Source of the DNA: Sphaerochaeta halotolerans
GTDB taxonomy: Bacteria; Spirochaetota; Spirochaetia; Sphaerochaetales; Sphaerochaetaceae
DNA length: 64,000 nucleotides
Direction of reading: 5' to 3'
Assembly (NCBI RefSeq): GCF_003429665.1
Contig: NZ_QUWK01000014.1
Location: 1-64,000 of the forward strand
Notes under the pieces: model-generated
Databases searched by the model: none
Told to the model about the DNA's origin: nothing
What the model saw: the letters and a program-made list of their open reading frames with translations, nothing else
Made by a program: the position numbers and the translations under genes
Part shown: in pieces, positions 7,903-63,861 of the stretch
Position numbering within the stretch: position 1 is the first letter of the stretch
Layout of the letters: every line of letters starts with the position of its first letter

Positions 7903-7903
7903 A

Positions 7904-13245: not shown

Positions 13246-13256
13246 GTTTTCGCTCC

Positions 13257-29903: not shown

Positions 29904-29915
29904 AAGAGGATGGTA

Positions 29916-31698: not shown

Positions 31699-33161
31699 GT
31701 GAACAATTCATCCTTGCATTCGACCAGAGTACATCTACCACGAAAGCCCTGCTTTTCGACCAGAGAGGAGCTTTGCGGGGACGTTCAGACGTGCCACACC
31801 GCCAGATCATCAATGACCAAGGGTGGGTGGAGCATGATGCTGAACAGATCATCAAGAATCTCTTTTCAGCCGCAAAAACCCTTCTGGAAACCACTGCTGT
31901 GGACCGCTCCTCTATTAAAGCCGTTGCCATCTCCAACCAACGGGAGACTGCTGTTGCCTGGAACAGAAACAGTGGAAAAGCTTTGTACCATGCCATAGTC
32001 TGGCAGTGCGGGAGGGCAAAGGATATTTGTGTTGCTCTGGAAAAAGACAAAGAGGAAATTCATAGGAGGACCGGCTTGCATCTCTCCCCCTATTTCAGTG
32101 CCGCCAAGTTTGCTTGGATGCTCCAAAACGTCAAGACAGTAAAAGATGCAGCACAGTCAGGAGAGCTGGTACTTTCAACCATGGACAGCTATGTTCTCTA
32201 TCACTTGAGCAAGGAAAAAACAGTCCGCAGCGAGTACTCCAACGCCTCTCGAACACAGCTTATGAATATTACAGACCTTAGCTGGGATAAATACGTGTCT
32301 TCCCTTTTTGGCATCCCACCAGAAAGCCTGCCTGAGTTGTGTGACTCAAATGCTCTCTTCGGCCACACTAACCTAGATGGACTTTTACCAGGGGAAGTCC
32401 CCATTCATGCAATGCTCGGAGACTCCCAAGGTGCCCTCTATGCACAGGGTTGTCATCACAAGGGCATGACGAAAGCTACCTATGGCACGGGATCCTCCAT
32501 CATGATGAACATCGGGGAGAAACAAGTACTCTGTGAGGATCTGGTCACCAGTCTTGCTTGGGGAATTGACGGAAAGGTCACCTATGTTTTGGAAGGGAAC
32601 ATCAACTACAGTGGAGCAACAATCTCCTACTTGGTTGAGGATCTTCAGCTTATCAGCTCAGCAAAGGAGGCTGGTATCCTTGCAAAACAAGCCAAGGACA
32701 TCGAAGGCCTCTACATGGTGCCAGCCTTCAGTGGCTTGGGTGCTCCCTATTGGGACCCAGGGGCGAGAGCGGTAATTGTAGGGTTGGACAGACGGTGCAA
32801 GAAAGCAGAACTGGTCAAGGCAGCAGAAGAATCGATTGCCTATCAAATCGCAGATATCGTCTTTTTAATGCACAAGCATTCAAAACAGGACATCACCAGT
32901 CTCAGGGTTGACGGCGGACCCACCAACGATACATTCCTCATGCAAGCCCAGAGTGACATCATTGGCTGTGAGGTTCGTGTTGCCGCATTGGAGGAATTGA
33001 GTGGACAGGGACCTGCTCTCATCGCTGCAAAGGCAGTAGGAATCCTGGAGCAAGTGCAACTCCCAGCAAAAGCACTCTATCAACCAATGATGAGTGATAC
33101 GGAGAGAGCAAAACGGTATGAAGGATGGAAGAAAGCAGTCAGCAAAGCTTTGTCGTCTTAG
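31695..33161 (+). CDS. FGGY-family carbohydrate kinase (glycerol kinase-like)
   Basis: The 488-residue enzyme is an FGGY sugar kinase. It has the N-terminal phosphate loop FDQSTSTTKALLFDQ, AISNQRETAVAWNRNSGKALYHAIVWQ (close to glycerol kinase), the central LGDSQGALYAQGC, KATYGTGSSIMMNIG, and LRVDGGPTNDTFLMQAQSDI with the catalytic region and adenosine loop. Its closest overall pattern is GlpK-like, but the operon contains an isomerase and transketolase and no glycerol gene, so a ketose is the likelier substrate. It overlaps the transketolase C subunit by four bases. The last bases overlap the opposite-strand transaldolase-like gene. Confidence 0.87.
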   Translation: MSEQFILAFDQSTSTTKALLFDQRGALRGRSDVPHRQIINDQGWVEHDAEQIIKNLFSAAKTLLETTAVDRSSIKAVAISNQRETAVAWNRNSGKALYHAIVWQCGRAKDICVALEKDKEEIHRRTGLHLSPYFSAAKFAWMLQNVKTVKDAAQSGELVLSTMDSYVLYHLSKEKTVRSEYSNASRTQLMNITDLSWDKYVSSLFGIPPESLPELCDSNALFGHTNLDGLLPGEVPIHAMLGDSQGALYAQGCHHKGMTKATYGTGSSIMMNIGEKQVLCEDLVTSLAWGIDGKVTYVLEGNINYSGATISYLVEDLQLISSAKEAGILAKQAKDIEGLYMVPAFSGLGAPYWDPGARAVIVGLDRRCKKAELVKAAEESIAYQIADIVFLMHKHSKQDITSLRVDGGPTNDTFLMQAQSDIIGCEVRVAALEELSGQGPALIAAKAVGILEQVQLPAKALYQPMMSDTERAKRYEGWKKAVSKALSS

Positions 33162-35973: not shown

Positions 35974-36783
35974 TTACTCCATGGTAGCAGGAATTTCAGG
36001 CCACACCTTCACCCCTTTCTCAAGAAGCCAGGTATGCTCATTTCTGTAGTAGCGGGTTGTCGGCAACCACTTGTCACCAGGAAGGTGAGGAATCATCCAT
36101 ACATAATACATTGCATACCCCGGGGCTGCACCTTGACTATGTGTAGTGTTCGGTTTGATCAGGGAGGTATCCCCATCATGGACAACAAAAGCATCCTCAT
36201 CCAAGACCGAAATTCCAAAACCCTGCCTCGGGAAGAATCGGTAGTGATAAATCTCCGGATGTGGATGATCATGAGGAGGATAACTTGACCATCGACCGGG
36301 GTGGTTGATGACTTCCCCCATTACCATGTTCGAATAGGGAGCGCTCTCTCCGTCGAATACGGTCCGCACAGTACGATTGCTCGTCTCCTGCAGCACTCCG
36401 GCTCCAAAAACCTCCGTCTTTACATCACCCTTGTCATAGAACCGAACGGGGAAGGACTGTTCGTTCTTGCACCGTTCAACAACAAGCTCACAATCACGCT
36501 CTGCCTTGATTGTTACTGGAACGGAGGAAGGGGCATGCAATACTACTGGAGACTCGTCAATACAACTCTGTCGTTCACTCGTTGCACTCCCTTCATCCCA
36601 GCTGAAAGTAATCTTTCCTTTCAGGAGCATCCAAGCACGTTCCAGGGGGAGCGTGCAGCTGGTATGCTCTCCTGCTTTCAATTTAAGAATACCAAAATCA
36701 AGCAGCATATCACTATGTGGTCCATCAAGGCTAGTGATGGAAGTATATCCCCAATCAAATGGTTCTTGTTTTTGTACAATCAT
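35974..36783 (-). CDS. iolB: 5-deoxy-glucuronate isomerase
   Basis: The 269-residue protein is a double cupin of the IolB/KduI family. It has LLDFGILKLKAGEHTSCTLPLERAWMLLKGKITF, and the metal-binding stretch WSSYPPHDHPHPEIYHYRFFPRQGFGIS, in which His, His and Glu are the expected ligands. NTTHSQGAAPGYAMYYVWMIPHLPGDKW follows. IolB converts 5-deoxy-D-glucuronate to 5-dehydro-2-deoxy-D-gluconate in myo-inositol breakdown. It is about 18 kb from iolG, iolD and iolE at 54468-58296 and lies beside unrelated genes. It has a strong GGAGG site. IolC, IolJ and IolA are not present in this window. Confidence 0.92.
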   Translation of the reverse strand: MIVQKQEPFDWGYTSITSLDGPHSDMLLDFGILKLKAGEHTSCTLPLERAWMLLKGKITFSWDEGSATSERQSCIDESPVVLHAPSSVPVTIKAERDCELVVERCKNEQSFPVRFYDKGDVKTEVFGAGVLQETSNRTVRTVFDGESAPYSNMVMGEVINHPGRWSSYPPHDHPHPEIYHYRFFPRQGFGISVLDEDAFVVHDGDTSLIKPNTTHSQGAAPGYAMYYVWMIPHLPGDKWLPTTRYYRNEHTWLLEKGVKVWPEIPATME

Positions 36784-49619: not shown

Positions 49620-50570
49620 TTACTGCAAAGCATCCAATGCAGCTTGCGCATTCTCTATGGTGATGATGTCAACGCCACTATCAATACGCTTCTCAATGGT
49701 CTCCCCATTGGCAGCCTTGATCGCGTATTCAACACCAAGATACCCCATGGCCTCGGGCTTCTGTGCAGCAGTACCAAACAAACCGCCTTCAAGGATGGAT
49801 TCAAGTGCACTCTTGTTACCATCAGTGCCAAGAACCAGAGCATCTATACCAACTTGCTGGAGAGCACGAAGAGCGCCAAGAGCCATCTCATCATTCGAGC
49901 AGAATACTGCGTCGATGTCGGCATTGCCCTGCAGGATATTCTGCATAACGGTGTAAGCACGTTCACGGTCACTGTATCCCGGCTGACGAGCTACAATTTC
50001 AAAACCTGCTTCCTTGAATACATCTTCTGCACCATCAGCACGCTGTGTTGTGGTCGGGTTTCCTGGAGCGCCTTCAATAACCACTGCCTTCCCTGCACGG
50101 CCAAGCGCATCAACCATAGCTTTGGCACCCATTTGACCGGCAACATAGTTCTCGGTACCAATGAAGGTGTCATAGTTTTCGAATCCATCAGCCATCGGAG
50201 TGTCAACCAGAATCACGGGAATTCCCTGATTCTTTGCCCGGTTGACTACATTGACTGCCGTGGGAGGCTGGCTGGGAGAGAATACCAGAGCTGCAGGATT
50301 TGCAGTAAGGGCATCCTGAACCATGTTGATCTGCTGCTCAACAGCATCCTCGGTGGGAGGACCAAGTTTGATCAGCTCAACATCATACTTTGCAGCAGCT
50401 TCCTCTGCGCCGTTGACCACTCTCTGCCAATATTCACTGCTGAGAGTCTTCAAGACGACAGCTACCTTCATCTTGCCTGAGTCAGCAGTTTCATTCTGGC
50501 CTTGGGCAAATAGAGCTGTCTGGCTGGCAATCAATACGAGAGCCAAAAGAATCATCATTGTTTTTTTCAT
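49620..50570 (-). CDS. ribose/inositol-type sugar ABC transporter substrate-binding protein
   Basis: The 316-residue periplasmic protein has a signal peptide (KKTMMILLALVLIASQTALFAQ, mature GQNETADSG). It has the family-4 binding pattern SSEYWQRVVNGAEEAAAKYDVELIKLGP, NMVQDALTANPAALVFSPSQP, IPVILVDTPM, VFCSNDEMALGALRALQQVG and LVLGTDGNKSALESILEG. It is related to ribose- and inositol-binding proteins but differs from the one at 26287. Given the surrounding inositol genes, an inositol is the likely ligand, comparable to IbpA of Caulobacter. It is followed by an elaborate RNA-like structure. Confidence 0.88.
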   Translation of the reverse strand: MKKTMMILLALVLIASQTALFAQGQNETADSGKMKVAVVLKTLSSEYWQRVVNGAEEAAAKYDVELIKLGPPTEDAVEQQINMVQDALTANPAALVFSPSQPPTAVNVVNRAKNQGIPVILVDTPMADGFENYDTFIGTENYVAGQMGAKAMVDALGRAGKAVVIEGAPGNPTTTQRADGAEDVFKEAGFEIVARQPGYSDRERAYTVMQNILQGNADIDAVFCSNDEMALGALRALQQVGIDALVLGTDGNKSALESILEGGLFGTAAQKPEAMGYLGVEYAIKAANGETIEKRIDSGVDIITIENAQAALDALQ

Positions 50571-50612
50571 GTGAACCTCCTTATTAGGTCATGAAATAAC
50601 ACATATTCAAAG

Positions 50613-50627
50613 GGAGACAACGTCTCC
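50613..50627 (-). promoter_or_regulatory. short stem-loop between permease and binding-protein genes
   Basis: GGAGAC (50613-50618) and GTCTCC (50622-50627) form a 6-bp stem with a 3-base loop in the 70-base gap; on the minus strand it is followed by CUUUG. It may attenuate or mark a processing site between the permease and the binding-protein gene. Confidence 0.45.
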
Positions 50628-50640
50628 ACTATACGCTTTC

Positions 50641-51666
50641 TTATTTCTGCACAGGTGCAGATTTCTGTCTGATTACATCAAGGTACACCGCTAGGATGAT
50701 GACAACACCAATAGCAACTGTCTGGTATGCCGAGTTTACATTCAGCAGGTTCAATCCGTTACGCAGCACAGCGATGATCAGAACACCAATGACGGTATTG
50801 AGAATCTTACCTACACCACCACTAAAGCTTGCTCCACCGATGATGACCGCTGCAATCGCATCAGTCTCATAATCGGTTCCAGCCAGCGGATAGGCAGCAT
50901 TCACACGTCCAACCAGCAACAAACCTGCAAGGGCAGCAAAGAAGCCACTCAAGGCATAGACAATCAATAGTACCTTATGCACATTGATACCGCTGAGGCG
51001 GCTTGCCTCCACATTTCCCCCTACAGCATAAATATGCCGACCGGTACTGGTGCGGGTCATGAAAATGAACATAATACCGTACACTATCGCTACAAGAATG
51101 ACACTTGCAGGAACAGGGCCGATGGATCGATTCCCCAAGAACTGGATGGATGGAGCAAATCCACTGATCGGCTGTGCAGCGGTGACTGCAAGAGCAAGAC
51201 CTCGAGCAATCATTTTTGTACCCATGGTAGAAATAAATGGATGGGGTAGTCTGAGTTTGGTAAGTAGAATACCGTTGAATAGCCCAATCAGAGTTCCTAC
51301 TGCAAGGGCAAGTAGTATTGCCAGCATTGGATTCATCTGCATGTTCACTGCAAATATACCGAGCATCATGATGGAAAGTGCTAGTATGGATCCAATGGAA
51401 AGGTCAATTCCTGCTGTCAGAATCGCGAGGAACTCACCTACGGAGATGATGGCACTGACCGTTGCCTGAGACAGGACGTTCGTCAAGTTCGCCACCGTAA
51501 GGAATCGTGGAGAGAGAATACTGATAATCACACAGAGCACAATCAAGCTCAGCATGATACCCAGGCTTCCCCGCTTTTTTGTTTTTTTCTTTTCCTTTGT
51601 TTCTTCGCTCTGTGTCGCTTCTACCGCACCATCTTTGCGTACTTCTTCATTCTTCTTCCTGTTCAT
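50641..51666 (-). CDS. ribose/inositol-type sugar ABC transporter permease
   Basis: The 341-residue protein has a highly charged cytosolic N-terminus (residues 1-32, rich in Lys, Glu and Thr). RbsC-type helices with SVGEFLAILTAGIDLSIGSILALS, NGILLTKLRLPHPFISTMGTKMIARG, HIYAVGGNVEASRLSGINV and GGASFSGGVGKILNTVIGVLI follow. The charged N-terminal extension is unusual compared with the permease at 22930. It overlaps the preceding oxidoreductase stop by four bases. Confidence 0.9.
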   Translation of the reverse strand: MNRKKNEEVRKDGAVEATQSEETKEKKKTKKRGSLGIMLSLIVLCVIISILSPRFLTVANLTNVLSQATVSAIISVGEFLAILTAGIDLSIGSILALSIMMLGIFAVNMQMNPMLAILLALAVGTLIGLFNGILLTKLRLPHPFISTMGTKMIARGLALAVTAAQPISGFAPSIQFLGNRSIGPVPASVILVAIVYGIMFIFMTRTSTGRHIYAVGGNVEASRLSGINVHKVLLIVYALSGFFAALAGLLLVGRVNAAYPLAGTDYETDAIAAVIIGGASFSGGVGKILNTVIGVLIIAVLRNGLNLLNVNSAYQTVAIGVVIILAVYLDVIRQKSAPVQK

Positions 51667-52685
51667 ACTTCACTCTTCCATTGATCTATTGTTATTGGTT
51701 TATTCAGCCGCATCGATTCATTGGCAGCGAGTGCTACCTCCAATACGCGAACTCCATCTGTGACGGTTACTGCCGGAGCATCCTTTTCCCCGAGCACATC
51801 GAGAACGAACTGCTGTAGTTCCATCTGATATGCATCGAGAAATCGTTCGAGGAATCCTGGCACGGAATATTGACGGGTGCCGGTTGCATCAAGCACTGAA
51901 AGCCCTTGTTGCTGTACACTCCCCACATTCATTGACCCTTCGCTACACACAATCTCTGTCCGTACATCGTAACCGTACTGGCTGTTACGACTGCCCTCGA
52001 GAGAGGCAACCTTGCCGTTTGAAAAAGTCAGTTCAATATTCACGTGATCAATATCACCTATCTCCCCCAGCTCGGGATAACGAACTACAGCTCCACGGGC
52101 ATATACCTCGGTTACTTCTGCATTGAAAAACCAACGACATAAATCGATATCATGGACACACAGATCAAGCACCAAGCCACCACTTGTCTTCGCAAACGCT
52201 AGCGGCGGGCAGCCGGGATCCCGGCTGATTCCCAGAATCGAAACGGGTTCTCCCATTGTTCCACTGGCTATCTGTGCTTTGGCCTCCATATAGGATCGGT
52301 CAAACCGTCGCATGAAACCGAGCTGTACAAAAGCTTTCTTTTCGGTGGCGAGCCTATCAAGCTCAACTGCCTCATCCCAGTCCAGAGATAGAGGTTTTTC
52401 CAGGAAAGCAGGCTTCCCAGAAAGAATTGTATCCTTCAGCACCTGCCCGTGGCTGCTCGTTGAGGAGGCGATTACGACCGCATCAATATCATCACGCTTC
52501 AGTATTTCTTGATAATTTAGGTACTTTTGCACGTCGGGATAGCTGGCAGAGAAAGCATCAAGAGAGGCCTGGGAAACATCGGAAACGGCAACCAGCTCTG
52601 ACTGGGGGATGATCCCCGCAAGATTTGCCGCATGACGATACCCAAGCCGGCCTAGTCCAATCGCTGCACATCGTAGTCTTTTCAT
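51663..52685 (-). CDS. Gfo/Idh/MocA-family oxidoreductase (inositol dehydrogenase-like)
   Basis: The 340-residue protein has RCAAIGLGRLGYRHAANLAG (Rossmann), FLEKPLSLDWDEAVELD with the catalytic Lys, FMRRFDRSYMEAK and VLDLCVHDIDLCRWFF (conserved Asp and His). The C-terminal part resembles myo- or scyllo-inositol dehydrogenases. It sits between the ATPase and the permease genes of the importer, overlapping the latter by four bases. This placement inside a transporter operon argues that the transported sugar or inositol is its substrate. Confidence 0.85.
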   Translation of the reverse strand: MKRLRCAAIGLGRLGYRHAANLAGIIPQSELVAVSDVSQASLDAFSASYPDVQKYLNYQEILKRDDIDAVVIASSTSSHGQVLKDTILSGKPAFLEKPLSLDWDEAVELDRLATEKKAFVQLGFMRRFDRSYMEAKAQIASGTMGEPVSILGISRDPGCPPLAFAKTSGGLVLDLCVHDIDLCRWFFNAEVTEVYARGAVVRYPELGEIGDIDHVNIELTFSNGKVASLEGSRNSQYGYDVRTEIVCSEGSMNVGSVQQQGLSVLDATGTRQYSVPGFLERFLDAYQMELQQFVLDVLGEKDAPAVTVTDGVRVLEVALAANESMRLNKPITIDQWKSEV

Positions 52686-52696
52686 CTGTTGTTCTC

Positions 52697-54199
52697 CTAA
52701 ATGTGGTAACCGCTTGCAGCGTACATGATTTTCTCGTCCGAGAAGTTTTCACGGTCCAGCTCACCCATCACCTGCCCTTCATGGTAGACAATGATCCGAT
52801 CTGCCATACCCATACACTCATCCATTTCAGAACTGATCATGATTACTGCCTTCCCGTTGGATACGAGTTCATTGATCAGGTTGTATACTTCAATCTTTGC
52901 ACCGACATCGATACCTCGTGTTGGTTCATCAAAGATAAAGATATCTGATTCACTCAGCAGCCACTTGGCAAGAACCACTTTCTGCTGATTTCCTCCACTC
53001 AGTTGCCCGGCAAGGGTAGTGACATTGGGCACCTTGATACGAAGGCTGTCCACCATTTGCTTTGCTACATCCTTCATCTTTCTAAGATCAAGAAACGGTT
53101 TTCTGGTTTTGAACTGCTTCAGATCAACAAGCGTGGTGTTAAATTCTACCGTCTCAAGGAGAACCAACCCCTGACCCTTACGATCCTCTGTGAGAAATGC
53201 AATGCCGTTTCTGATGGAATCCTGAGGGGTTTTTATATTTACCTTCTTCCCATGGATGTATACCTCCCCGGCATCTATAGGATCGGCTCCAGTCAGTCCA
53301 CGAATACTTTCAGTCCGTCCTGCCCCAACTAAGCCTGACACCCCAAGAATCTCGCCTGCATGGACCTTGAAACTAACATTCTCATACTCTCCTGCCTTGG
53401 TAAGACCTTTGACTTCGAGTACGACATCCCCTCGCTGTGTCTCCACCTTGGGATACTTGTTCTTGATATCACGCCCGACCATCAACTTGATGATGTTGTC
53501 CACTGAAACATCTTCGATACGACGGTTTGCAACCACCTCCCCATCGCGCATTACCGTGAGGGAATCACAAACAGATTTCACTTCTTCAAGCCGGTGAGAA
53601 ATAAAAATCATGGTGACCTGCTGCTGTCGTAATTTCTTAATGATTTTAAAAAGCTCGCCAGCTTCTTTCTCGCTCAGACTGGCAGTGGGCTCATCCATGA
53701 TAATGAGCTTAGCCTTGGAATGAACTGCCTTGCATATTTCCACCATTTGCCGTTTACCGACACCAAGAAGACCTACCGGTGTATTCGGATCAATATCCAA
53801 TTCGAAATCAGCAAGCAACTCACGGGCCACTTCAACCTGTGTCTTCCTATCTACGAAGGCGTGACTGGTTTTCAACTCCCGACCTAAAAAGATATTCTCG
53901 GCTACGGTCATGTAATTCACTTGATTGAGTTCTTGATAGATGCAAGAAATGCCTAACCCCATTGCCTGGCGGGGAGTCAAAGCAGAGAAGGACTGTCCAT
54001 CAAAGAAAATTTCGCCATCATTCGGTGCATGGGCACCAGCGAGTACCTTTATCAGGGTGGATTTGCCAGCACCGTTCTCCCCTACCAATCCATGAACTTC
54101 ACCTCGTTTTACGTTCATGGAAACTGCGTTCAAAGCAAGTACACCCGGATAGCGTTTGGTAATATTTCGTAATTCCAAAATATTTGTATCTTCTTTCAC
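52697..54199 (-). CDS. ribose/inositol-type sugar ABC transporter ATP-binding protein
   Basis: The 500-residue protein has two ABC domains. The first has GLVGENGAGKSTLIKVLAG, LGVGKRQMVEICKAV and LIIMDEPTASLSEKEA. The second has GVSGLVGAGRTESIRGLTG, LSGGNQQKVVLAKWLL and IFIFDEPTRGIDVG. It is the first gene of the minus arm and starts 77 bases from a LacI-type operator. With the permease at 50641 and binding protein at 49620 it forms a complete importer, probably for inositol (compare IatA). Confidence 0.92.
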   Translation of the reverse strand: MKEDTNILELRNITKRYPGVLALNAVSMNVKRGEVHGLVGENGAGKSTLIKVLAGAHAPNDGEIFFDGQSFSALTPRQAMGLGISCIYQELNQVNYMTVAENIFLGRELKTSHAFVDRKTQVEVARELLADFELDIDPNTPVGLLGVGKRQMVEICKAVHSKAKLIIMDEPTASLSEKEAGELFKIIKKLRQQQVTMIFISHRLEEVKSVCDSLTVMRDGEVVANRRIEDVSVDNIIKLMVGRDIKNKYPKVETQRGDVVLEVKGLTKAGEYENVSFKVHAGEILGVSGLVGAGRTESIRGLTGADPIDAGEVYIHGKKVNIKTPQDSIRNGIAFLTEDRKGQGLVLLETVEFNTTLVDLKQFKTRKPFLDLRKMKDVAKQMVDSLRIKVPNVTTLAGQLSGGNQQKVVLAKWLLSESDIFIFDEPTRGIDVGAKIEVYNLINELVSNGKAVIMISSEMDECMGMADRIIVYHEGQVMGELDRENFSDEKIMYAASGYHI

Positions 54200-54467: not shown

Positions 54468-55502
54468 ATGAGTGCAGTCGTTAACATTGGTATCATCGGT
54501 GCAGGCCGTATCGGAAAATTACACGCAGAAAACATTACCAAGCTGGTACCCTCGGTACAGGTGGTTGGAATTAGCGATGTCATGATGAACGATGAGATGG
54601 AGAAATGGGCTCACTCATTGGGAATTGGCATTGCAACGAAAGATCCTTCTGATTTGATCAATCATGAGGAAATTGATGCGATCCTGGTTTGCAGCTCTAC
54701 ATCGACGCATGCAGACTTCACCATGGCATCTGCAAAGGCCGGCAAGCATGTCTTCTGTGAGAAACCCATCGATCTCTCGGTAACGAAGGGGTTGGAAGCT
54801 ATCAAAGTCGCAAGAAAACACCAGGTGAAGCTGCAACTGGGCTTTAACCGACGCTTTGACCATAACTTCAAGCACATCCATGACCTAAGAACTGCTGGAA
54901 AGGTAGGAGATGTACATATTGTTAAGATTACCAGCCGTGACCCAGCTCCCCCATCTCCTGCCTATGTGGCTGTCTCTGGTGGTATCTTCCTGGACATGAT
55001 GATCCATGACTTTGATATGGCACGCTTCCAGGCAGGAAGTGAAATCACCAGTGTTTATGCTACCGGTGCAGTTCTTGTTGACCCGGAGATTGGCAAAGCT
55101 GGAGATATAGACACCGCCATCGTCACCCTCACATTCGCCAATGGTGCAATCGGGGTTATAGATAATTCTCGTCAAGCAGTCTATGGCTATGACCAACGCG
55201 TTGAGGTATTCGGGAGCAAGGGCGCCGCTCAAGCAGAGAATGATAGACCCACCAATGTGACACTATCCACTGCAGAACAGGTATCCACGGATAAGCCGCT
55301 CTATTTCTTCCTAGAACGCTATGAGGATGCTTTCGTCGACGAAATCAGCTCGTTTGCAGAGGCAATCCTTGAAAACAAGGAAGTGGTGGTCAGTGGAGAG
55401 GACGGGCTTGAAGACATGGTTGCAGCGCTTGCTGCAGGAAAAAGTCTGAAAGAAGGACGAGTAGTAACGATTGCAGAAATGAAAGATGAATTGGGCCTTT
55501 GA
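54468..55502 (+). CDS. iolG: inositol 2-dehydrogenase (Gfo/Idh/MocA family)
   Basis: The 344-residue protein has NIGIIGAGRIGKLHAENITKLVPSV (Rossmann), VFCEKPIDLSVTKGLEAI with the catalytic Lys, LQLGFNRRFDHNFKHI, and VKITSRDPAPPSPAYVAVSGGIFLDMMIHDFDMARF. The last stretch is nearly diagnostic for IolG and holds the catalytic Asp and His. It oxidises myo-inositol to scyllo-inosose with NAD. It is first in the plus arm, followed after 20 bases by iolD. The other two Gfo/Idh/MocA enzymes of the locus fit this pattern less closely. Confidence 0.9.
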   Translation: MSAVVNIGIIGAGRIGKLHAENITKLVPSVQVVGISDVMMNDEMEKWAHSLGIGIATKDPSDLINHEEIDAILVCSSTSTHADFTMASAKAGKHVFCEKPIDLSVTKGLEAIKVARKHQVKLQLGFNRRFDHNFKHIHDLRTAGKVGDVHIVKITSRDPAPPSPAYVAVSGGIFLDMMIHDFDMARFQAGSEITSVYATGAVLVDPEIGKAGDIDTAIVTLTFANGAIGVIDNSRQAVYGYDQRVEVFGSKGAAQAENDRPTNVTLSTAEQVSTDKPLYFFLERYEDAFVDEISSFAEAILENKEVVVSGEDGLEDMVAALAAGKSLKEGRVVTIAEMKDELGL

Positions 55503-55522: not shown

Positions 55523-57388
55523 ATGGATACGATTCGACTGACAATGGCTGGTGCCTTGTTACGTTTTTTAGACAATCAATATGTGTCTTACGATGGAGTT
55601 GAAGAAAAATTCGTCGAAGGAGTTTTCGGTATCTTCGGCCACGGCTGTGTCGTAGGGATTGGAGAAGCCTTGGCAGCAAAAGAGAACAAGCTTCCCTTCT
55701 ACCAGGCAAAGAACGAGCAAGGTGCAGTCCATGCTGCTGCAGGATTTGCAAAGGAGCACAACCGAAGAAGAATCATGGCAGTCACCTCCTCTATTGGACC
55801 AGGTGCACTGAATATGGTAACGGGAGCAGGAACTGCCACCGCTAATCATATCCCTGTATTGCTACTTCCCGGTGATGTATTTGCCTGCCGTCAACCTGAC
55901 CCGGTATTACAACAAATTGAAATACCGCATGACTATACCAATACAGCAAACGATGCATTTCGCTCCGTAAGCAGGTACTGGGACCGAATAAACAGACCAG
56001 AACAACTGATGAGTGCCATGCTCAACGCCATGCGAGTCCTCACTGACCCGAGCGAGACAGGAGCAGTCACGGTCGCACTTCCGCAGGATGTTCAAGGTGA
56101 AGCCTATGACTATCCTGTTGAGTTCTTTGAGAAGCGAGTACACTACATTGAGAGACGAATCCCGAGTGAAGGACAAATTACACGCCTTGCCGAATTATTG
56201 AAAGAAGCAAAGAAGCCATTGGTAATCTGTGGAGGTGGAATTCGCTACAGTGAAGCTGGGGATGCGCTTGCTTCGTTTTGTGAGCAGTATCATATCCCAT
56301 TCGGAGAAACCCAGGCAGGGAAAGGGATGGTCCGTTGGGACAACCCATACAACCTGAGTGGCATTGGAAATACAGGAAGCCAGGCCGCAAATCGATTGGC
56401 AAAACAGGCTGACCTGATCCTTGGTATCGGAACTCGTTTCGGAGACTTTACCACCTGTTCGAAGTGGCTGTTCCAGAACCCGGAATGCAAGTTCGTCTCT
56501 GTTAATGTTGCACCTGCAGATGCCTACAAACTCAATAGCATGCCAATTATTGCAGATGCAAAGTTGACACTTGAAGCGCTCAAGGATACAGAGTTGCTAA
56601 AAGGTTATCATAGCCGATGGGCAGAGCAAATCAAACAAGAACGGGCACTGTGGGACAAGGAAGTCGACCGCCTCTATAGTGAAGACATTCCTTCTTCACT
56701 CTCCCAAGTACGCGTTTTGGGTGAACTTAACGACCGACTGCTTCCAGAATCTGCAATCGTAGTTTCTGGCTCAGGATCCATTCCTAGTGATATGCAACGG
56801 GTCTGGAGAACGAGAGTCAGAGGAACCTACCATATGGAGTATGCATTCTCTTGTATGGGATACGAGATTGCTGCAGCCCTAGGGGCTAAGATTGCCCACC
56901 CCGATACTGAAGTGGTGGCAATCGTTGGTGACGGTGCCTATACCATGCTCCACACAGAACTGCTTACATCCATCCAAGAGGGGAAAAAGATAATTGTGGT
57001 AATACTGGATAATGCAGGATTCCACTGCATTGACAATCTTCAGCATAGCCAGGGCATCGTGCATTATGGGAATGAATGGAAACGAAGGGAAGCATCCACT
57101 GGAAGGCTTACCGGATCTTCACTCAGCGTTGACTATGCCATGAATGCAGAGAGCTGGGGAGCAGTAGGACTTCATGCCGATACTGTACAAGCATTGGAAG
57201 ATGCAATGAAACAAGCTCTTCAGGAAGACCGCTCCACAGTGATTCATTGCCATGTGGCTCCCAAGTCTATGACTGGAGGCTATGAATCATGGTGGCGTGT
57301 CGGGACTGCAGAAGTCTCTACCAATCCAGAAGTTGAACAGGCATGGAAAGAGATGCAGGCTGAAATCAAAAAGTCAAGACAATTCTAA
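55523..57388 (+). CDS. iolD: 3D-(3,5/4)-trihydroxycyclohexane-1,2-dione hydrolase
   Basis: The 621-residue protein is a ThDP-dependent enzyme of the acetolactate synthase family. It has the pyrimidine domain (EEKFVEGVFGIFGHGCVVGIGEAL, NEQGAVHAAAGFAKEHNRRR with the Glu of the NEQ motif), AVTSSIGPGALNMVTGAGTATANHIPVLLLPGD, a central domain and the cofactor motif VGDGAYTMLHTELLTSI ending at DNAGFHCIDNL. The long YEQNLQ-like spacing and the sequence HIPVLLLPGDVFACRQPDPVLQQ are typical of IolD. It hydrolyses the ring of the diketone to 5-deoxy-D-glucuronate. It lies between iolG and iolE. Confidence 0.93.
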   Translation: MDTIRLTMAGALLRFLDNQYVSYDGVEEKFVEGVFGIFGHGCVVGIGEALAAKENKLPFYQAKNEQGAVHAAAGFAKEHNRRRIMAVTSSIGPGALNMVTGAGTATANHIPVLLLPGDVFACRQPDPVLQQIEIPHDYTNTANDAFRSVSRYWDRINRPEQLMSAMLNAMRVLTDPSETGAVTVALPQDVQGEAYDYPVEFFEKRVHYIERRIPSEGQITRLAELLKEAKKPLVICGGGIRYSEAGDALASFCEQYHIPFGETQAGKGMVRWDNPYNLSGIGNTGSQAANRLAKQADLILGIGTRFGDFTTCSKWLFQNPECKFVSVNVAPADAYKLNSMPIIADAKLTLEALKDTELLKGYHSRWAEQIKQERALWDKEVDRLYSEDIPSSLSQVRVLGELNDRLLPESAIVVSGSGSIPSDMQRVWRTRVRGTYHMEYAFSCMGYEIAAALGAKIAHPDTEVVAIVGDGAYTMLHTELLTSIQEGKKIIVVILDNAGFHCIDNLQHSQGIVHYGNEWKRREASTGRLTGSSLSVDYAMNAESWGAVGLHADTVQALEDAMKQALQEDRSTVIHCHVAPKSMTGGYESWWRVGTAEVSTNPEVEQAWKEMQAEIKKSRQF

Positions 57389-57402: not shown

Positions 57403-58296
57403 ATGAGCACACAAAAAATTCATTTGGCTATCGCTCCGATTGGTTGGACGAATGATGATCTTCCAGAACTTGGTGGAGAAATCCCATTTGAGCAGTGCAT
57501 CAGCGAGATGGCCTTGGCGGGATTTACAGGAAGTGAAGTGGGAAATAAATACCCACGAGATACCACTGTACTGAAGAAGGCATTGGACCTTCGTGGACTG
57601 CAGATCTGCAACGCATGGTTCAGTACCTTCTTAACCACCCAAAGGTATGAGGAAGTCGAAAAAGCGTTTGTAGAACACTGCACATTCCTGAAGGAAATGG
57701 GGGCACAGGTGGTTGGGGTTGCAGAACAAGGCAACTCAATTCAAGGCCGCCAGGACCTCTCTGTTTTTGATGCAAAACCTGTGAATTCGGAGCAAGAGTG
57801 GAAACTGCTCACAGAAGGCCTTACCAAGCTTGGACAAAAAGCAAAAGAGATGGGGATGGCCCTCACCTACCACCACCATATGGGAACCGGAGTCCAGACC
57901 TCAGAGGAGATTGACCGTCTCATGCGAGAGACTGATCCTGCCCTTGTTGGCTTGCTCTATGATACTGGTCACTTGGTATTCAGTGGAGAAGACCCAATGG
58001 ATATTCTTAAACGCCATTTTTCAAGAATTCGCCATGTCCACCTCAAGGATGTGAGAAAACCATTGAGAGAGAAAGCCATCAAGGAAAAGTGGTCGTTCTT
58101 GAAAGGAGTAAAGGAAGGTGTATTCACCATTCCAGGGGATGGAATGATTGACTTCAAACCAATACTGACCTACCTCAAGGAACATGGCTACCAAGGCTGG
58201 TGGGTCGTTGAGGCAGAACAAGACCCGGCAAAGGCAAATCCGCTTGAGTATGCGATGAAGGCAAGAGCTTATATCCGCGAGACTACAGGAATCTAG
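57403..58296 (+). CDS. iolE: myo-inosose-2 dehydratase
   Basis: The 297-residue TIM-barrel enzyme starts with LAIAPIGWTNDDLPELGGEIPFEQCISEMALAGFTGSEVG, the hallmark of IolE. Metal ligands occur in MALTYHHHMGTGVQTSEEID, VGLLYDTGHLVFSGEDP and HVHLKDVRKP. It dehydrates scyllo-inosose to the trihydroxycyclohexane-dione used by IolD. The ribosome-binding site AAGGATAGAG is 14 bases after the iolD stop. A 71-base gap with nothing notable separates it from the transketolase pair. Confidence 0.93.
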   Translation: MSTQKIHLAIAPIGWTNDDLPELGGEIPFEQCISEMALAGFTGSEVGNKYPRDTTVLKKALDLRGLQICNAWFSTFLTTQRYEEVEKAFVEHCTFLKEMGAQVVGVAEQGNSIQGRQDLSVFDAKPVNSEQEWKLLTEGLTKLGQKAKEMGMALTYHHHMGTGVQTSEEIDRLMRETDPALVGLLYDTGHLVFSGEDPMDILKRHFSRIRHVHLKDVRKPLREKAIKEKWSFLKGVKEGVFTIPGDGMIDFKPILTYLKEHGYQGWWVVEAEQDPAKANPLEYAMKARAYIRETTGI

Positions 58297-58367: not shown

Positions 58368-59225
58368 ATGGGAAGAACCATGAATAATCAAGAGTTGAAA
58401 CAACTACAGGTTATTGCTAAGCATATCCGCCGTGATACGATTGAAGAAATTGGAAATCTGGGAGTTGGACACATAGGGGGGGCATTATCGGTAGTTGATA
58501 TTCTGACGCTCCTTTACTTTCGAGTAATGGAACACATTGATCCCAAAAACCCCCGAAACGAAAACCGAGACAAATTGGTGCTCTCGAAAGGACATGCTGG
58601 ACCTGCGCTTTATGCAGTCCTTGCAGAGAAGGGGTTCTTCCCGAAAGAGTGGCTTCTGACACTCAACAAGGGAGGAACGAACCTTCCAAGCCATTGTGAT
58701 ATGAACCGGACCCCTGGTATTGATTTCACCACAGGATCTCTTGGCCAGGGAAGTTCTGCCGCCGCGGGAATTGCACTCGCAGACAAACTCAAGAGAATCG
58801 AAGCAATCACCTATCTCATAATCGGGGATGGGGAGAGCCAAGAGGGACAAATCTGGGAGATGGCAATGTTTGCTGCACAGTACAAACTATCCAACCTCAT
58901 AGCATTCACCGATTACAATAAGCTCCAAATTGACGGTAGTACCAGCGATATTATTGACCTAGGGGATATTGAGCTAAAGTGGAAGGGGTTTGGCTGGTTC
59001 GTCCAAAGAGTCAACGGACATGATTTCGAGGCTCTTGAGGATGCTGTTCTACAGGCAAAAGCCCAAGGGGAAAAACCTTCCATGATCATCTGTGACACCA
59101 TCAAGGCAAAAGGCTTCTCTCTTGCCGAAGGATTGGCTTCAAGTCATAACATGGCGTACTCCAAAGAGGTAGCCAAGCAAGCAATTGAAGAACTCATGGC
59201 TGAAGACGGGGGGAAAGAAAAATGA
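58368..59225 (+). CDS. transketolase, N-terminal subunit (inositol locus)
   Basis: The 285-residue subunit has IRRDTIEEIGNLGVGHIGGALSVVDI with the catalytic His and the ThDP motif GDGESQEGQIWEM to FTDYNKLQIDG. NRTPGIDFTTGSLGQGSSAAAGIALA is also present. ATG 58368 follows AGAGGTC; an ATG four codons later has GGAAG and may be used. It is followed by the C subunit with a four-base overlap. Placement directly after iolE, with no iolC or iolJ, suggests a place in the inositol pathway. The sequence differs from the two other N subunits in the window. Confidence 0.88.
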   Translation: MGRTMNNQELKQLQVIAKHIRRDTIEEIGNLGVGHIGGALSVVDILTLLYFRVMEHIDPKNPRNENRDKLVLSKGHAGPALYAVLAEKGFFPKEWLLTLNKGGTNLPSHCDMNRTPGIDFTTGSLGQGSSAAAGIALADKLKRIEAITYLIIGDGESQEGQIWEMAMFAAQYKLSNLIAFTDYNKLQIDGSTSDIIDLGDIELKWKGFGWFVQRVNGHDFEALEDAVLQAKAQGEKPSMIICDTIKAKGFSLAEGLASSHNMAYSKEVAKQAIEELMAEDGGKEK

Positions 59226-60172
59226 CTGATATTGCCACCATGAAAGATTTCCGTACCATCTATGCCGATACACTGATTGAACTTGCTCAAGAGGATTCCA
59301 GAGTTGTAGTGTTCGAAGCTGATTTGATGAGTGCAACAGGAACAAAACATTTCAAGGAACTATTTCCAGAACGATCAATAAATTGTGGAGTCGCTGAAGC
59401 CAACATGGTCGGTATTGCAAGCGGGCTCTCATCCCAAGGATTTATTCCCTTCGTCAATACATTTGGATGTTTTGCAACCCGTAGAGCGTATGACCAATTC
59501 TTTCTTTCTGCAAACTATGCACGACAGAATGTAAAACTGGTCGGTCTCGACCCCGGTATAACGGCAGCATTCAATGGGGGAACCCATATGCCATTTTGTG
59601 ATATTGCGCTCACCAGGGTCATTCCTGATCTGGTCGTCGTAGAACCAGGTGATGGATGGGCAGTGCACCATCTGACAAAAGCAGTTTACGCTCATCAAGG
59701 ATCTGTATATGTACGCTTGCAGAGGAAAGGGAACCCCATCTTCTATGATGCCAACCAAACCTTTGAACTGGGTAAGGGCATCATTGTACGGGACGGAAAG
59801 GATGTCACATTGGTCGCAACGGGGGCAGTCATGCTTGAACAGGCAATACTGGCTTCACAAGCATTGGAGAAAGAGAACATCTCTGCAGCAGTGATTGATA
59901 TGCATACCATCAAGCCGCTGGATAAGGAACTTGTCCTCTCCTATGCGAAGAAAACGAACGCCGTCGTTACCTGTGAAAATGCCCAGATGGCTGGAGGGCT
60001 TGGAAGTGCGGTTTCTGAGTTTTTGAGTGAACAGTATCCCACGGTAGTAAGGCGTGTTGGGATACAAGACCTGTTCGGAGAAGTAGGAACCGTTGAATAC
60101 CTTATGAAACGCTTTGCGTTGACAGCTGGGCAGATTGTCCAGGAAGCCAAGGATGCTATCAAAAGAAAATAG
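59222..60172 (+). CDS. transketolase, C-terminal subunit (inositol locus)
   Basis: The 316-residue subunit has the pyrimidine domain (INCGVAEANMVGIASGLSSQG, with the catalytic Glu in AEAN rather than AEQN) and the C-terminal domain (AVVTCENAQMAGGLGSAVSE). It differs from the other pairs in GVAEAN and in LDPGITAAFNGGTHMPFCDIALTR, where usual enzymes have sequences such as SxxxxYGDGKTHQSIDDIAL. These changes lie close to the donor/acceptor site. ATG 59222 is preceded by a purine-rich GGGGGGAAAG. With the N subunit it should transfer a ketol group; the donor may be a carboxylated ketose. Confidence 0.87.
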   Translation: MTDIATMKDFRTIYADTLIELAQEDSRVVVFEADLMSATGTKHFKELFPERSINCGVAEANMVGIASGLSSQGFIPFVNTFGCFATRRAYDQFFLSANYARQNVKLVGLDPGITAAFNGGTHMPFCDIALTRVIPDLVVVEPGDGWAVHHLTKAVYAHQGSVYVRLQRKGNPIFYDANQTFELGKGIIVRDGKDVTLVATGAVMLEQAILASQALEKENISAAVIDMHTIKPLDKELVLSYAKKTNAVVTCENAQMAGGLGSAVSEFLSEQYPTVVRRVGIQDLFGEVGTVEYLMKRFALTAGQIVQEAKDAIKRK

Positions 60173-60213: not shown

Positions 60214-60301
60214 TTGGAAAGGAAGTGATACAAAACATTAAGACTGCATGAACCTCGTCCTATGCAGGAGAAACGCTAGATTTCCAGGAGGAACAAACAC
60301 C

Positions 60302-61333
60302 ATGAAAAAGATCAAGGTTGGAGTAGCAGGGTATGGAGTAATTGGACAGCGACTCGCTGATGGAGTTGCCTTGCAAGATGACATGGAATTGGTAGGCGTT
60401 GCAGATGTAGCCCCCACCCTGAGTGTTCGTGCACTCAAAGAAAAGGGCATGCCCTACAAACTGTTCACCGCCATGCCTGATAACACAGCAGCACTCGATG
60501 AGGCTGGTATCCCCATCAGTGGCAGTCTGGAGGATTTGGTACAGCAGGTTGATATCATGCTCGATGCCACGAGTGCAGGAATTGGACTCAAGAACAAGGA
60601 AATCTATAAGAAATATGGAAAGAAAGCTGTATTCCAAGGTGGGGAGAAAAACACCGTTGCAGATGTATTCTTCCATGGTTATGCAAACTACGAAAAAGGT
60701 CTTGGAGCGGACTACCTCAAACTTACCAGCTGCAATACCACTGGTTTGATCCGGGCTGTGGATTGTCTCGACCGTGAAGTTGGAGCAGAAAAGGTTGCAA
60801 TCACAATCATCCGTCGTGTTGCAGACCCTGGGGACTACCATCGTGGCTTGACCAATGCACTAAAGATTGATAAGGCACCCAGCCACCAGGCAGTTGATTT
60901 GATGACCATCATGCCACATGTTGAAGCTACCGGGATTCTGATCCATACCCCGGTCACCCATGGTCATATCATTACCGTCGTACTCACACCGAAGAAGGAC
61001 ATCTCGGTGGATGAGGCTATCGCCATCTTCGAGAAACATCCCCGTATCCGTGTGGTCTCCATCGATGAAGGATTCCTTGGCAATGCCAGTCTCTTCCGTT
61101 ATGCCCGTGACCTAGGGAACCCGAGAGGTGATATGTATGAAATCGCTCTTTGGAAAGACTCCGTGGTCAAGAGTGGCAAGGATTTGATGTTTGCCATCAA
61201 CATCCCTCAGGAGTCGGTGGTCATTCCTGAGAATATTGATGCAATTAGGGCTGCAATGGAGATGCAAAGCGACCGAGAGAGCGGTACCTCTGAGACCAAC
61301 AAATATTTAGGAATTGGAACATGGAAAAAGTAA
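60302..61333 (+). CDS. archaeal-type (type II) glyceraldehyde-3-phosphate dehydrogenase homologue
   Basis: The 343-residue protein matches archaeal GAPDH rather than the usual bacterial enzyme: KVGVAGYGVIGQRLADGVALQDDMELVGVAD at the start, VFQGGEKNTVADVFFHGYANYE, and the active-site LTSCNTTGLIRAVD with Cys144. Later motifs deviate from what I recall of archaeal enzymes: HRGLTNAL where they have KGPxNAI, and PSHQAVD where they have PSHHGPD. These regions shape the phosphate and catalytic pockets. Altered substrate use is therefore possible. The ATG at 60302 follows AGGAGGAAC; a frame extending to 60248 is rejected. It overlaps the PGK-like gene by 13 bases. Confidence 0.88.
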   Translation: MKKIKVGVAGYGVIGQRLADGVALQDDMELVGVADVAPTLSVRALKEKGMPYKLFTAMPDNTAALDEAGIPISGSLEDLVQQVDIMLDATSAGIGLKNKEIYKKYGKKAVFQGGEKNTVADVFFHGYANYEKGLGADYLKLTSCNTTGLIRAVDCLDREVGAEKVAITIIRRVADPGDYHRGLTNALKIDKAPSHQAVDLMTIMPHVEATGILIHTPVTHGHIITVVLTPKKDISVDEAIAIFEKHPRIRVVSIDEGFLGNASLFRYARDLGNPRGDMYEIALWKDSVVKSGKDLMFAINIPQESVVIPENIDAIRAAMEMQSDRESGTSETNKYLGIGTWKK

Positions 61334-62604
61334 CACAGATCCGTATGCGCAGTCTGGAGGATGTGGAACTTGCCGGGCGGACGGTTATCTTCCGCCCTGA
61401 TATCAATTCCCCCATCGATCCCAAGACCAAGCGTATTGTTAATACCAACAGACTGGAGAAGGCAGCCCCCACACTCAAGACACTGCTCGATGGTGGTGCA
61501 AAGGTTGCATTAATCGCTCATCAGGGTGACACCCTGGACTACCAGAACCTTATTCCCCTTGCCGAGCATGCTCAAATCCTGAGCAAACTCACCGGCTATG
61601 AGATTGCCTATCTCGATGATGTCTGTGGTCCCACAGCCATCCAGACGGTACGCTCTCTCAAGGAAGGGCAAGCGGTAATACTGGGAAATCTCCGCTATCT
61701 GTCGGAAGAGATTACCGCATTCGAAAAAGAAGTGAAACTCAAGCCCTCTGAGATGCTTGGAACTTGGTTGGTACGCTCCTTGGCCCCACTGGCTGACCTG
61801 TACGTCAATGATGCTTTTGCTGCCGCACACCGCAATGCACCCTCGATGGTAGCATTTCAGGAGTTATTGCCCACTGCTGGAGGCAAACAACTGGTTGCAG
61901 AGTACACTGCCCTATCCAAGGTTGCATCACAGCCAATACACCCTTGTGTCTTTGTCCTGGGAGGTGGGAAGATTAGCGACGCCTTCGGTATGATGCGCAA
62001 TGTACTGGAGAACAAGACAGCCGATACCATACTCTGTGGTGGGATCACGGCACTGGTGATGTTGCTGGCGAAGGGTGTTTCGCTGGGCGATTCCACTTGG
62101 AACTTCCTCAAAGATCGTGACCTGTTGCAATTTGTAGACCAGGCAAGACAGTTGCTTGCCTCCTGGCCTGAAGCATTTGTCATTCCACTCGACCTCGCGT
62201 ATGAAGAGGAGGGGAAACGGAAAGAGGTAACAATCGAGACGATAGCAGGATCGAAAGCGTTGCAGAGCAAGTTGTTCCTCGATCTTGGAGAACAGACCAT
62301 CGAATCTTACAAATTGGTGATTGCAAAAGCGGGTTCTATTTTTGTGAATGGCCCGGCAGGGGTGTACGAAGATGAGCGTTTTGAGAAAGCAACCAAAGAG
62401 ATTTGGACTGCTATCGCCGACGCTGATGGATATACCGTCGTAGGAGGTGGGGACACAATCACCGCGGCAACCCGCTTCACCGACCTCAAGCAGTACTCCT
62501 ATGTCTGTACCGCAGGAGGAGCGATGGTTCGTTTTCTCTCAGGCAAGAAACTCCCCTTGATAGAGGCGATGGGAAAAGCCTGGGAACGAGATGGCAAGGA
62601 GTAA
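61321..62604 (+). CDS. archaeal-type phosphoglycerate kinase homologue with altered substrate residues
   Basis: The 427-residue protein has a PGK fold closest to archaeal enzymes: FRPDINSPIDPKTKR (Arg25, Asp27, Asn29), YVNDAFAAAHRNAPSM with the conserved Arg, VLGGGKISDAFGMM, FVNGPAGVYEDERF, and VVGGGDTITAA. Differences fall at substrate-binding sites. The HxGRP motif is HQGDTLD, so the phosphate-binding Arg is Asp70. The canonical (L/I)ENVRF is LGNLRYL, and STGGGA is CTAGGA. Catalysis of phosphoryl transfer looks preserved. A different acyl phosphate or acid may be used. It is translationally coupled to the GAPDH-like gene and is followed three bases later by the LarA-like gene. Confidence 0.87.
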   Translation: MEKVTQIRMRSLEDVELAGRTVIFRPDINSPIDPKTKRIVNTNRLEKAAPTLKTLLDGGAKVALIAHQGDTLDYQNLIPLAEHAQILSKLTGYEIAYLDDVCGPTAIQTVRSLKEGQAVILGNLRYLSEEITAFEKEVKLKPSEMLGTWLVRSLAPLADLYVNDAFAAAHRNAPSMVAFQELLPTAGGKQLVAEYTALSKVASQPIHPCVFVLGGGKISDAFGMMRNVLENKTADTILCGGITALVMLLAKGVSLGDSTWNFLKDRDLLQFVDQARQLLASWPEAFVIPLDLAYEEEGKRKEVTIETIAGSKALQSKLFLDLGEQTIESYKLVIAKAGSIFVNGPAGVYEDERFEKATKEIWTAIADADGYTVVGGGDTITAATRFTDLKQYSYVCTAGGAMVRFLSGKKLPLIEAMGKAWERDGKE

Positions 62605-62607: not shown

Positions 62608-63861
62608 ATGCAGCTGAGCATTCCCTATCATGGAAAGAAAACGGTTGAGGTTACGTTATCAGAAGCACAGCTTCTTGGTATCCTTGAACCTAATGCGATC
62701 CCATCTCAAGGAGAAAGGGAAGTATTGCATGAAGCAACTGCCGGGATTGCTTCATTTCTCAAGGGAGCAAAGAAGGTGCTGGTAATCATCAATGATGCTA
62801 CCCGTCCCACTCCTACTCATGCGATGCTCAGCGCACTGCTCCCCCAGTTTGAAAAGGCTGGCCTTTCTGATGCACAAGTAACCATCCTGGTAGCAACAGG
62901 AGCTCACCGAGGGGTAAAGGATGAGGAGCTGGAACAGCTCCTCGGAACCTACACACAACGCTTAAAAAGCCGGTTGGTCAGTCATGATGCAAAGGATGCA
63001 TCATCCTTGGTGAACGTTGGTACCACCCGAAATGGTACTCCTATCCTCCTTAACAAACTGCTCTTCTCCTGTGACCGCATCGTGGTGACAGGAAGTGTGG
63101 AACCCCATTACTTTGCAGGATTCACTGGAGGGAGGAAAGCTTTTTTGCCTGGTATTGCAGGGTTTTCCACCATAGAGGCAAACCATAAGCTGGCAATCCA
63201 AGATGAAGCACACTCCCTTGCCCTGCAAGGGAACCCAGTACATGAGGATATGATGGATGCCCTGACCCATATCAAGGCACCTATAGTTTCCCTCATGACG
63301 GTATTGGACAAGGACCAGAAAGTGGTTGCAGCTACAAGCGGTGATATCGTCCAATCATTTTTGGAGGCGGTCGAAATTGCTCGTTCCGTGTTCTGTGTCC
63401 CGGTCAAGGAACAGGCGGATGTTGTTATCTCGATTGCAAAGTTTCCAATGGACATCAATCTCTACCAAAGCCAAAAAGCCATCGACAATGGGTCTCTGGC
63501 TGTGAAAGATGGCGGTACCCTAATCCTTGTCGCTTCATGTAGAGAGGGAATTGGGGATGCAGCGTTTGCCAAGCTTCTTGGTTCGTGCAAGTCTCCAGAT
63601 GAAGCTCTTGGGAAGATTGAAGCAGGGTACAAGCTTGGATATCACAAGGCTGCAAAGATGGCTTCTGTGAGCAAGCGGATAACAGTCCAAGCCTATACAG
63701 AACTACCTGATGAACTGGTAACCTCGCTCTTCCTTGTCCCCATACACAACCTGCAACAAGCGTTGGATGAAGCCTTGCAGAGCGCTAGAGGGAAGGGAGT
63801 GCTTAACCCAAAAGCGCTGCTACTTCTAGACGGTTGTGTCACGGTCCCTTCCCTTGACTAA
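62608..63861 (+). CDS. larA: LarA-family nickel-dependent 2-hydroxyacid racemase/epimerase
   Basis: The 417-residue protein matches LarA in all catalytic motifs: NDATRPTP (Asp63, Arg66), ATGAHRGV (His100), EPHYFAGFTGGRKAFLPG (His167 and cofactor-linked Lys177), and EANHKL (His193). LarA enzymes use a nickel-pincer nucleotide on lactate. The wider family includes racemases and epimerases for malate and other 2-hydroxyacids. No larB, larC or larE cofactor genes are in the window. It is the last gene of the inositol plus arm, an unusual location for lactate racemase. Racemisation of D-malate or another hydroxyacid produced by the pathway is inferred. Confidence 0.9.
   Translation: MQLSIPYHGKKTVEVTLSEAQLLGILEPNAIPSQGEREVLHEATAGIASFLKGAKKVLVIINDATRPTPTHAMLSALLPQFEKAGLSDAQVTILVATGAHRGVKDEELEQLLGTYTQRLKSRLVSHDAKDASSLVNVGTTRNGTPILLNKLLFSCDRIVVTGSVEPHYFAGFTGGRKAFLPGIAGFSTIEANHKLAIQDEAHSLALQGNPVHEDMMDALTHIKAPIVSLMTVLDKDQKVVAATSGDIVQSFLEAVEIARSVFCVPVKEQADVVISIAKFPMDINLYQSQKAIDNGSLAVKDGGTLILVASCREGIGDAAFAKLLGSCKSPDEALGKIEAGYKLGYHKAAKMASVSKRITVQAYTELPDELVTSLFLVPIHNLQQALDEALQSARGKGVLNPKALLLLDGCVTVPSLD

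Follow-up and report, generated by a model that had tools for sequence, protein, structure and literature searches.

A phosphoglycerate kinase homologue in a transketolase-containing inositol operon of Sphaerochaeta halotolerans: a predicted D-malyl-phosphate kinase

In the classical bacterial inositol pathway (IolG/E/D/B/C/J/A), 2-deoxy-5-keto-D-gluconate (DKG) is phosphorylated by IolC, at the expense of ATP, and cut into two C3 compounds by the aldolase IolJ. The gene cluster described here shares IolG, IolE, IolD and an IolB-like protein with that pathway. However, it differs in that 29 of 30 carriers of its iol-type form have no IolC over the cut-off (one does), in a predicted split of the C6 compound into C4 and C2 by transketolase, and in that ATP is predicted to be made, not spent, on DKG. 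In the sulfo-transketolase route for sulfoquinovose, a split transketolase likewise cuts a phosphate-free acidic sugar, though to our knowledge that route has another substrate and no glyceraldehyde-3-phosphate dehydrogenase (GAPDH)/phosphoglycerate kinase (PGK) pair. Furthermore, malic semialdehyde is known to be converted naturally to D-malate during the breakdown of carnitine (PMC11353897). The Acinetobacter carnitine pathway and the route proposed below have in common that D-malate arises from malic semialdehyde (PMC11353897), but Acinetobacter uses an aldehyde dehydrogenase without phosphate and gains no ATP, whereas a phosphorylating GAPDH and a kinase are predicted here.

The window, by which we mean the whole stretch of 64,000 nucleotides of the S. 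halotolerans genome that was analysed, contains an operon in the order iolG-iolD-iolE-transketolase (N, C)-GAP2-PGKL-LAR, entirely on the plus strand. PGKL is our name for the PGK-family protein encoded by the open reading frame at 61321-62604, GAP2 for the type II GAPDH and LAR for the LarA-family protein. The successive intergenic distances are 20, 14, 71, -4, 75, -13 and 3 bases, so three junctions either overlap or are 3 bases long. The features of the operon and its surroundings are as follows.

35974-36783, minus strand: IolB-like protein, predicted 5-deoxyglucuronate isomerase (PF04962, 169 bits; TIGR04378, 90.8 bits, below the cut-off of 205)
49620-54199, minus strand: sugar ABC transporter, divergent from the operon (binding protein 49620-50570, permease 50641-51666, ATPase 52697-54199)
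51663-52685, minus strand: second IolG-like dehydrogenase, within the ABC transporter cluster
54468-55502, plus strand: iolG, myo-inositol 2-dehydrogenase (TIGR04380, 467 bits, cut-off 355)
55523-57388, plus strand: iolD, trihydroxycyclohexanedione hydrolase (TIGR04377, 907 bits, cut-off 715)
57403-58296, plus strand: iolE, 2-keto-myo-inositol dehydratase (TIGR04379, 425 bits, cut-off 290)
58368-59225, plus strand: split transketolase, N-terminal half (Pfam Transketolase_N; nearest PDB entry 6yak, a split transketolase N-component)
59222-60172, plus strand: split transketolase, C-terminal half (Pfam domains; His416 to Asp and Asp424 to Asn, human numbering)
60248-61333, plus strand: GAP2, predicted phosphorylating D-malate semialdehyde dehydrogenase using NAD (NF003251, 417 bits; TIGR01546, 318 bits; 13-base overlap with PGKL)
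61321-62604, plus strand: PGKL, PGK-family protein, predicted D-malyl-1-phosphate:ADP phosphotransferase (D-malate kinase) (Pfam PGK, 339 bits; D70/A173/G122; structural model)
62608-63861, plus strand: LAR, predicted malate racemase (LarAH6 best NCBIfam match; Mar2, 6d6z, best PDB match; 3 bases 3' of PGKL)

Thus the window holds IolG, IolD and IolE proteins that exceed their curated cut-offs, and the best IolC match in the window genome, at 137 bits, falls below the cut-off of 300. The IolB-like gene lies about 18 kb from the operon, and its product is 77% and 63% identical to IolB-like proteins encoded within other clusters. The divergent ABC transporter is probably responsible for inositol uptake, a substrate that we infer from its position only.

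PGKL is a complete protein of 427 amino acids, starting with ATG and free of internal stops, and it matches the Pfam PGK profile (PF00162) over its full length at 339 bits against a cut-off of 27, as a member of this fold family. An AlphaFold model built from 35 family members (mean pLDDT 91.3) matched PGK structures with Z scores of 36 to 48, the nearest being the archaeal PGK of Pyrococcus horikoshii (2CUN; Z 48.2 over 403 residues, 34% identity). Similarly, 2CUN is nearest by sequence, at 263 bits compared with 191 for the best bacterial PGK. The window genome encodes a separate, canonical PGK on another contig (C48, 543 bits). In a FastTree phylogeny, a quick method applied here to a tree with long branches, the PGKL sequences form one group separate from canonical and archaeal PGKs, with inositol and transketolase contexts found in major parts of it. 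A search of plasmids with PGKL recovered distant PGKs only, below 35% identity.

In PGK, the 3-phosphate of the substrate is held by Arg65, Arg122 and Arg170, while His62 contacts the bridging oxygen and Asp23 and Asn25 bind the 2-oxygen (PMC7729029). PGKL contains the motifs AHQGDTLD (H67, D70), LGNLRYL (G122, R125), GGGKISD (K217), NGPAGVYE, GGGDT and CTAGGA, with Asp70 at the position of Arg65. A preliminary description of this DNA had recognized a PGK homologue with these motifs and with Asp in place of Arg, and sequence, Pfam match and alignment all agree. Asp occupies the Arg65 position in 93 of 94 family sequences (Ser in the other), a count that is biased, since most of these loci were retrieved through the motifs IAHQGDTL and DYQNLIPL; in an unbiased class-wide search, every PGKL covering the site again had Asp there, bar one Ser. 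The wider claim that substrate residues are changed holds for this position and for the second His of HRxHxS (A173), but not for D27, N29, R44, H67, R125, R171 or K217, all of which are retained, R125 and R171 being the remaining phosphate-site arginines (R122 and R170 of PGK). The basic patch has therefore lost one Arg and one His, the latter replaced by Ala, Ser, Cys or Gln across the 94 sequences. Compared with the archaeal-type PGK (EC 2.7.2.3, 2CUN), PGKL shares the fold, the HQG loop, the insertion after the NxR motif, the nucleotide site, the D/N/R/H residues and two of the three phosphate-binding arginines, but it differs in having Asp for Arg/Lys at position 65, a Thr-Leu-Asp-Tyr-Gln-Asn loop, Gly122 for Glu (in 90 of the 94 sequences), Ala173 for His and Cys396 for Ser, as well as in its genomic setting. 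The acid-site changes would fit a substrate with a smaller, less charged terminal group, but they are not proof of one.

The loss of one Arg and one His from the basic patch might also be expected of a pseudoenzyme or regulatory subunit. However, the catalytic Lys217, together with Asp27, Asn29, Arg44, Arg125, Arg171 and the nucleotide-site motifs, is essentially invariant in the 94 sequences, with high conservation across phyla, and we regard such a role as very improbable. The nucleotide-site features GGGKISD, NGPAGVYE and GGGDT were correctly described as kept. The Arg-to-Asp change is another matter, and as proof of a new substrate it must be rejected. The same substitution (HLGDP) occurs at this position, usually called a conserved Arg65, in PGKs presumed to have the housekeeping role in seven spirochaete genomes, namely Breznakiella and six further carriers (canonical PGK loci L152 and L156-L161), and 1QPG, one of the structures matched by the PGKL model, is a crystallized yeast R65Q mutant. 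For this reason the argument put forward in the preliminary description is weak as it stands, and the case for PGKL rests on context.

Part of that context is the altered character of its partner enzymes. The cluster transketolases have the expected ThDP domains (Pfam), with the catalytic Glu in all 33 copies, but in the C-terminal halves of all 33, His416 is replaced by Asp and Asp424 by Asn (human numbering), residues that both the human enzyme and the split transketolase of Carboxydothermus keep. The phosphate site of transketolases acting on phosphosugars comprises R318, S345, H416 and R474. All 33 cluster enzymes keep R474, and 24 keep R318 (two have Lys and seven a gap); position Ser345 is variable, and Asp replaces His416 throughout. 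A transketolase gene of this Asp/Asn type was present somewhere in each of 12 PGKL carriers tested, including those without a copy in the operon. Similarly, when GAP2 was compared with four archaeal GAPDHs, many otherwise fixed positions were found to be changed, and the changed residues are fixed across 91 GAP2 sequences. GAP2 belongs to the same family as the type II (archaeal) GAPDHs and has in common with them the SCNTTG cysteine motif and the conserved His of the LMHxH segment, but it has, among other changes, Asp for Lys33, Leu for Pro178, Gln for His193 and Ile for His221 (Sulfolobus numbering). The first of these changes follows the second Rossmann strand and likely confers a preference for NAD.

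Malate racemases carry H/Q and K as substrate residues at the W358/T359 positions (PMC11770544), and the malate racemase Mar2/LarAH6 has Gln293 and a His-Lys351 pair (PMC7583248). The best NCBIfam match of LAR is the LarAH6 malate racemase, at 390 bits and below the curated cut-off of 500, and its best PDB match is Mar2 (6d6z). All 58 LAR sequences have the LarA catalytic and cofactor residues D72, R75, H108, H174, K184, H200 and K298, and 57 of the 58 have the malate signature of Gln before the catalytic Lys plus the His-Lys pair. Thus LAR resembles Mar2/LarAH6 in its catalytic and cofactor residues, in Gln293 and in the His-Lys351 pair, but has Phe for Lys173 and scores below the NCBIfam cut-off. 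The cofactor of the racemase is in doubt, because a search of the window genome (99.99% complete) found neither LarC nor a LarE over the cut-off. LarC was present in 22 of 34 LAR carriers; the 12 without it are mostly spirochaetes, including several of the Sphaerochaeta type. In the window genome and these Sphaerochaeta-type carriers, LAR may thus lack its nickel-pincer cofactor. Either the cofactor is taken up there, or another insertase provides it, or LAR works differently.

Taken together, these features suggest a route from inositol to malate. DKG has the structure HOOC-CH2-CHOH-CHOH-CO-CH2OH, its two hydroxyls being D-threo, the arrangement that transketolase accepts, and the loss of a two-carbon unit leaves HOOC-CH2-CHOH-CHO in the D configuration. 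The product, D-malate semialdehyde, is D-glyceraldehyde-3-phosphate with CH2-COO- in place of CH2-O-PO3. We propose that IolG, IolE, IolD and IolB would yield DKG, which would be neither phosphorylated by IolC nor cut by IolJ. Instead, the split transketolase would transfer its top two carbons, presumably to glyceraldehyde-3-phosphate to give xylulose-5-phosphate, leaving D-malate semialdehyde, (R)-3-hydroxy-4-oxobutanoate. GAP2, with phosphate and NAD, would convert this to D-malyl-1-phosphate, from which PGKL would transfer the phosphate to ADP, forming D-malate and ATP. Malic enzyme and fumarase use L-malate, so the route needs a racemase, and the cluster supplies LAR, which would convert D-malate to L-malate for malic enzyme or the fumarate branch. 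We put the probability that PGKL is the ATP-forming step in such a transketolase branch of inositol catabolism at roughly 0.8. Every reaction, with its stereochemistry and direction, is inferred from what was observed: the gene content, its conservation, the residue changes and the lack of an IolC over the cut-off in most carriers. As far as sequence can decide, the operon, the separate canonical PGK and the distinct PGKL clade strongly support the earlier suggestion of an active kinase for a different acid, D-malate being one candidate. We found no data in the literature on growth of PGKL carrier species with inositol; inositol improves the growth of Anoxybacterium, which is related to the carrier Sinanaerobacter.

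A class-wide search identified PGKL in 17 of 297 genomes (E value of 1e-60 or better), with GAP2 beside it wherever the contig extends far enough. Furthermore, 154 PGKL relatives were recovered from 84,980 species genomes, and 80 of them were retained for locus counts. The loci span Spirochaetes, Clostridia, Chloroflexi, Synergistaceae, Proteobacteria, Kiritimatiellia and Latescibacterota. Near these 80 loci, GAP2 was found at 78 (directly upstream on the same strand at 76), LAR at 47, IolD at 36, IolE at 35, IolG at 32, the N- and C-terminal transketolase halves at 30 and 28, and malic enzyme at 23. The whole set (IolB, D, E and G, both transketolase halves, GAP2, PGKL and LAR) occurs at 15 of the 80, in Clostridia, Chloroflexi and Spirochaetes, with malic enzyme in addition at nine of the 15; its carriers include Carboxydocella, Caloramator, Fonticella, Lucifera and Clostridium sp. 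CX1. In roughly half of the PGKL loci the stretch examined contains no inositol genes, and several iol-PGKL operons have no transketolase genes. A single-genome or assembly artefact was ruled out, as the cluster is found in several phyla and also on complete chromosomes (Breznakiella CP067089, Carboxydocella CP028514).

These data also bear on whether GAP2 and PGKL are simply a second glycolytic pair, acting on glyceraldehyde-3-phosphate from inositol or pentose breakdown. PGKL is, after all, a full-length PGK that retains the nucleotide site, the catalytic Lys and most acid-site residues, GAP2 exceeds the type II GAPDH cut-off, and Asp for Arg65 is shared with presumed housekeeping PGKs. However, all 50 PGKL carriers searched had PGK matches, and nearly all have a second, better-scoring canonical PGK, like that on C48, so PGKL is neither the glycolytic PGK of the window genome nor, in nearly all carriers, the only one. 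The exceptions are a metagenome-assembled genome (MAG) of a 1.6-Mb gammaproteobacterium without a second match (L125) and a genome whose second PGK is only a fragment (L053). Glycolysis would also have no need of a malate-racemase-type LarA or malic enzyme. Among 20 carrier genomes used as a control, none of the canonical PGK loci had any of these genes within 10 kb, whereas their PGKL loci were accompanied by GAP2 in all 20 cases, by LAR in 18 and by malic enzyme in 10. Finally, fixed substrate-site changes affect transketolase, GAPDH and kinase alike. We therefore consider an ordinary glycolytic role unlikely.

The GAP2-PGKL pair was also found in other settings. A GABA-aminotransferase-type gene lies directly upstream of it at three loci:

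L073, 7600-8967: GABA-aminotransferase-type gene
L080, 7629-8978: GABA-aminotransferase-type gene
L128, 7002-8432: GABA-aminotransferase-type gene

In Sinanaerobacter (L080), this gene is immediately 5' of a GAP2-PGKL-malic enzyme-LAR cluster, and its product could feed in malate semialdehyde from 4-amino-3-hydroxybutyrate. In three spirochaete genomes (L038/L104, L041/L099 and L043/L079), a GarL/HpaI-type aldolase accompanies the pair. At L038, L043, L099 and L104, genes for this aldolase, a sugar-isomerase-like and an Asp/Glu-racemase-like protein are found together with GAP2-PGKL, and the racemase-like protein may replace LarA. Such neighbours could also be read as signs that the pair acts on some other semialdehyde (L-malate, tartronate or succinate semialdehyde, or that of a tartrate-type C4 acid), the more so as malate racemases epimerize tartrate to some extent (PMC11770544). 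However, malic enzyme is found at 23 of the 80 loci, LAR has the malate signature, and by established chemistry the D-xylulose configuration next to the keto group of DKG means that transketolase leaves D-malate semialdehyde. A different hydroxy-acid thus appears improbable, slightly more so than the glycolytic role, and the transaminase and aldolase contexts are consistent with a shared malate semialdehyde intermediate. In the nearest relative (L050, PGKL 94% identical), a ribulokinase-like gene (7129-8745) stands between transketolase and GAP2 and the upstream iol genes are absent; at this locus the module may be used for a different sugar.

We therefore think it probable, if a little less so than the role of PGKL in the inositol route, that these loci represent a widespread and previously undescribed fermentation module. 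In it, a phosphorylating D-malate semialdehyde dehydrogenase and a D-malyl-phosphate kinase, derived from the GAPDH/PGK pair, would yield ATP from several substrates that feed malate semialdehyde: inositol by way of transketolase, hydroxy-aminobutyrate by way of a transaminase, and others by way of an aldolase. The enzyme families are known; the route and the kinase substrate would be new. In open-licence full texts we found no transketolase branch of inositol catabolism, no malyl-1-phosphate kinase and no PGK-family enzyme with another acid. We know of no PGK-family kinase with a substrate other than 3-phosphoglycerate, and PGKL would be the first. If the proposal is correct, inositol catabolism has a second lower half, in which transketolase leads to malate in place of the malonate semialdehyde and DHAP formed by way of kinase and aldolase, and in which ATP is made rather than spent at the DKG stage; fermenters would gain an internal electron acceptor (malate to succinate or propionate). 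A GAPDH/PGK pair that is normally bound to triose phosphates would have been recruited to a carboxylate analogue, and the PGK-, GAPDH- and transketolase-like genes at no fewer than 154 loci (at least that many in one genome collection) would be prone to misannotation.

Some observations concern loci of a different kind. The PGKL loci of marine proteobacteria and of some gut clostridia have no interpretable context. In marine alpha- and gammaproteobacterial MAGs (L074, L101, L120, L121 and L125), GAP2-PGKL stands without inositol, racemase or malic enzyme genes in its vicinity, and the recurring neighbours are an amidohydrolase-like gene and small membrane proteins. The window itself contains two further split transketolases. 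One (29910-31698) lies in a second sugar cluster on the plus strand (28482-33161), together with a weak sulfoquinovose-isomerase-like protein and a glycerol-kinase-like FGGY kinase. The other (13257-15046), in a region on the minus strand (12361-15046), adjoins a tartronate semialdehyde reductase and has a substrate motif of yet another type.
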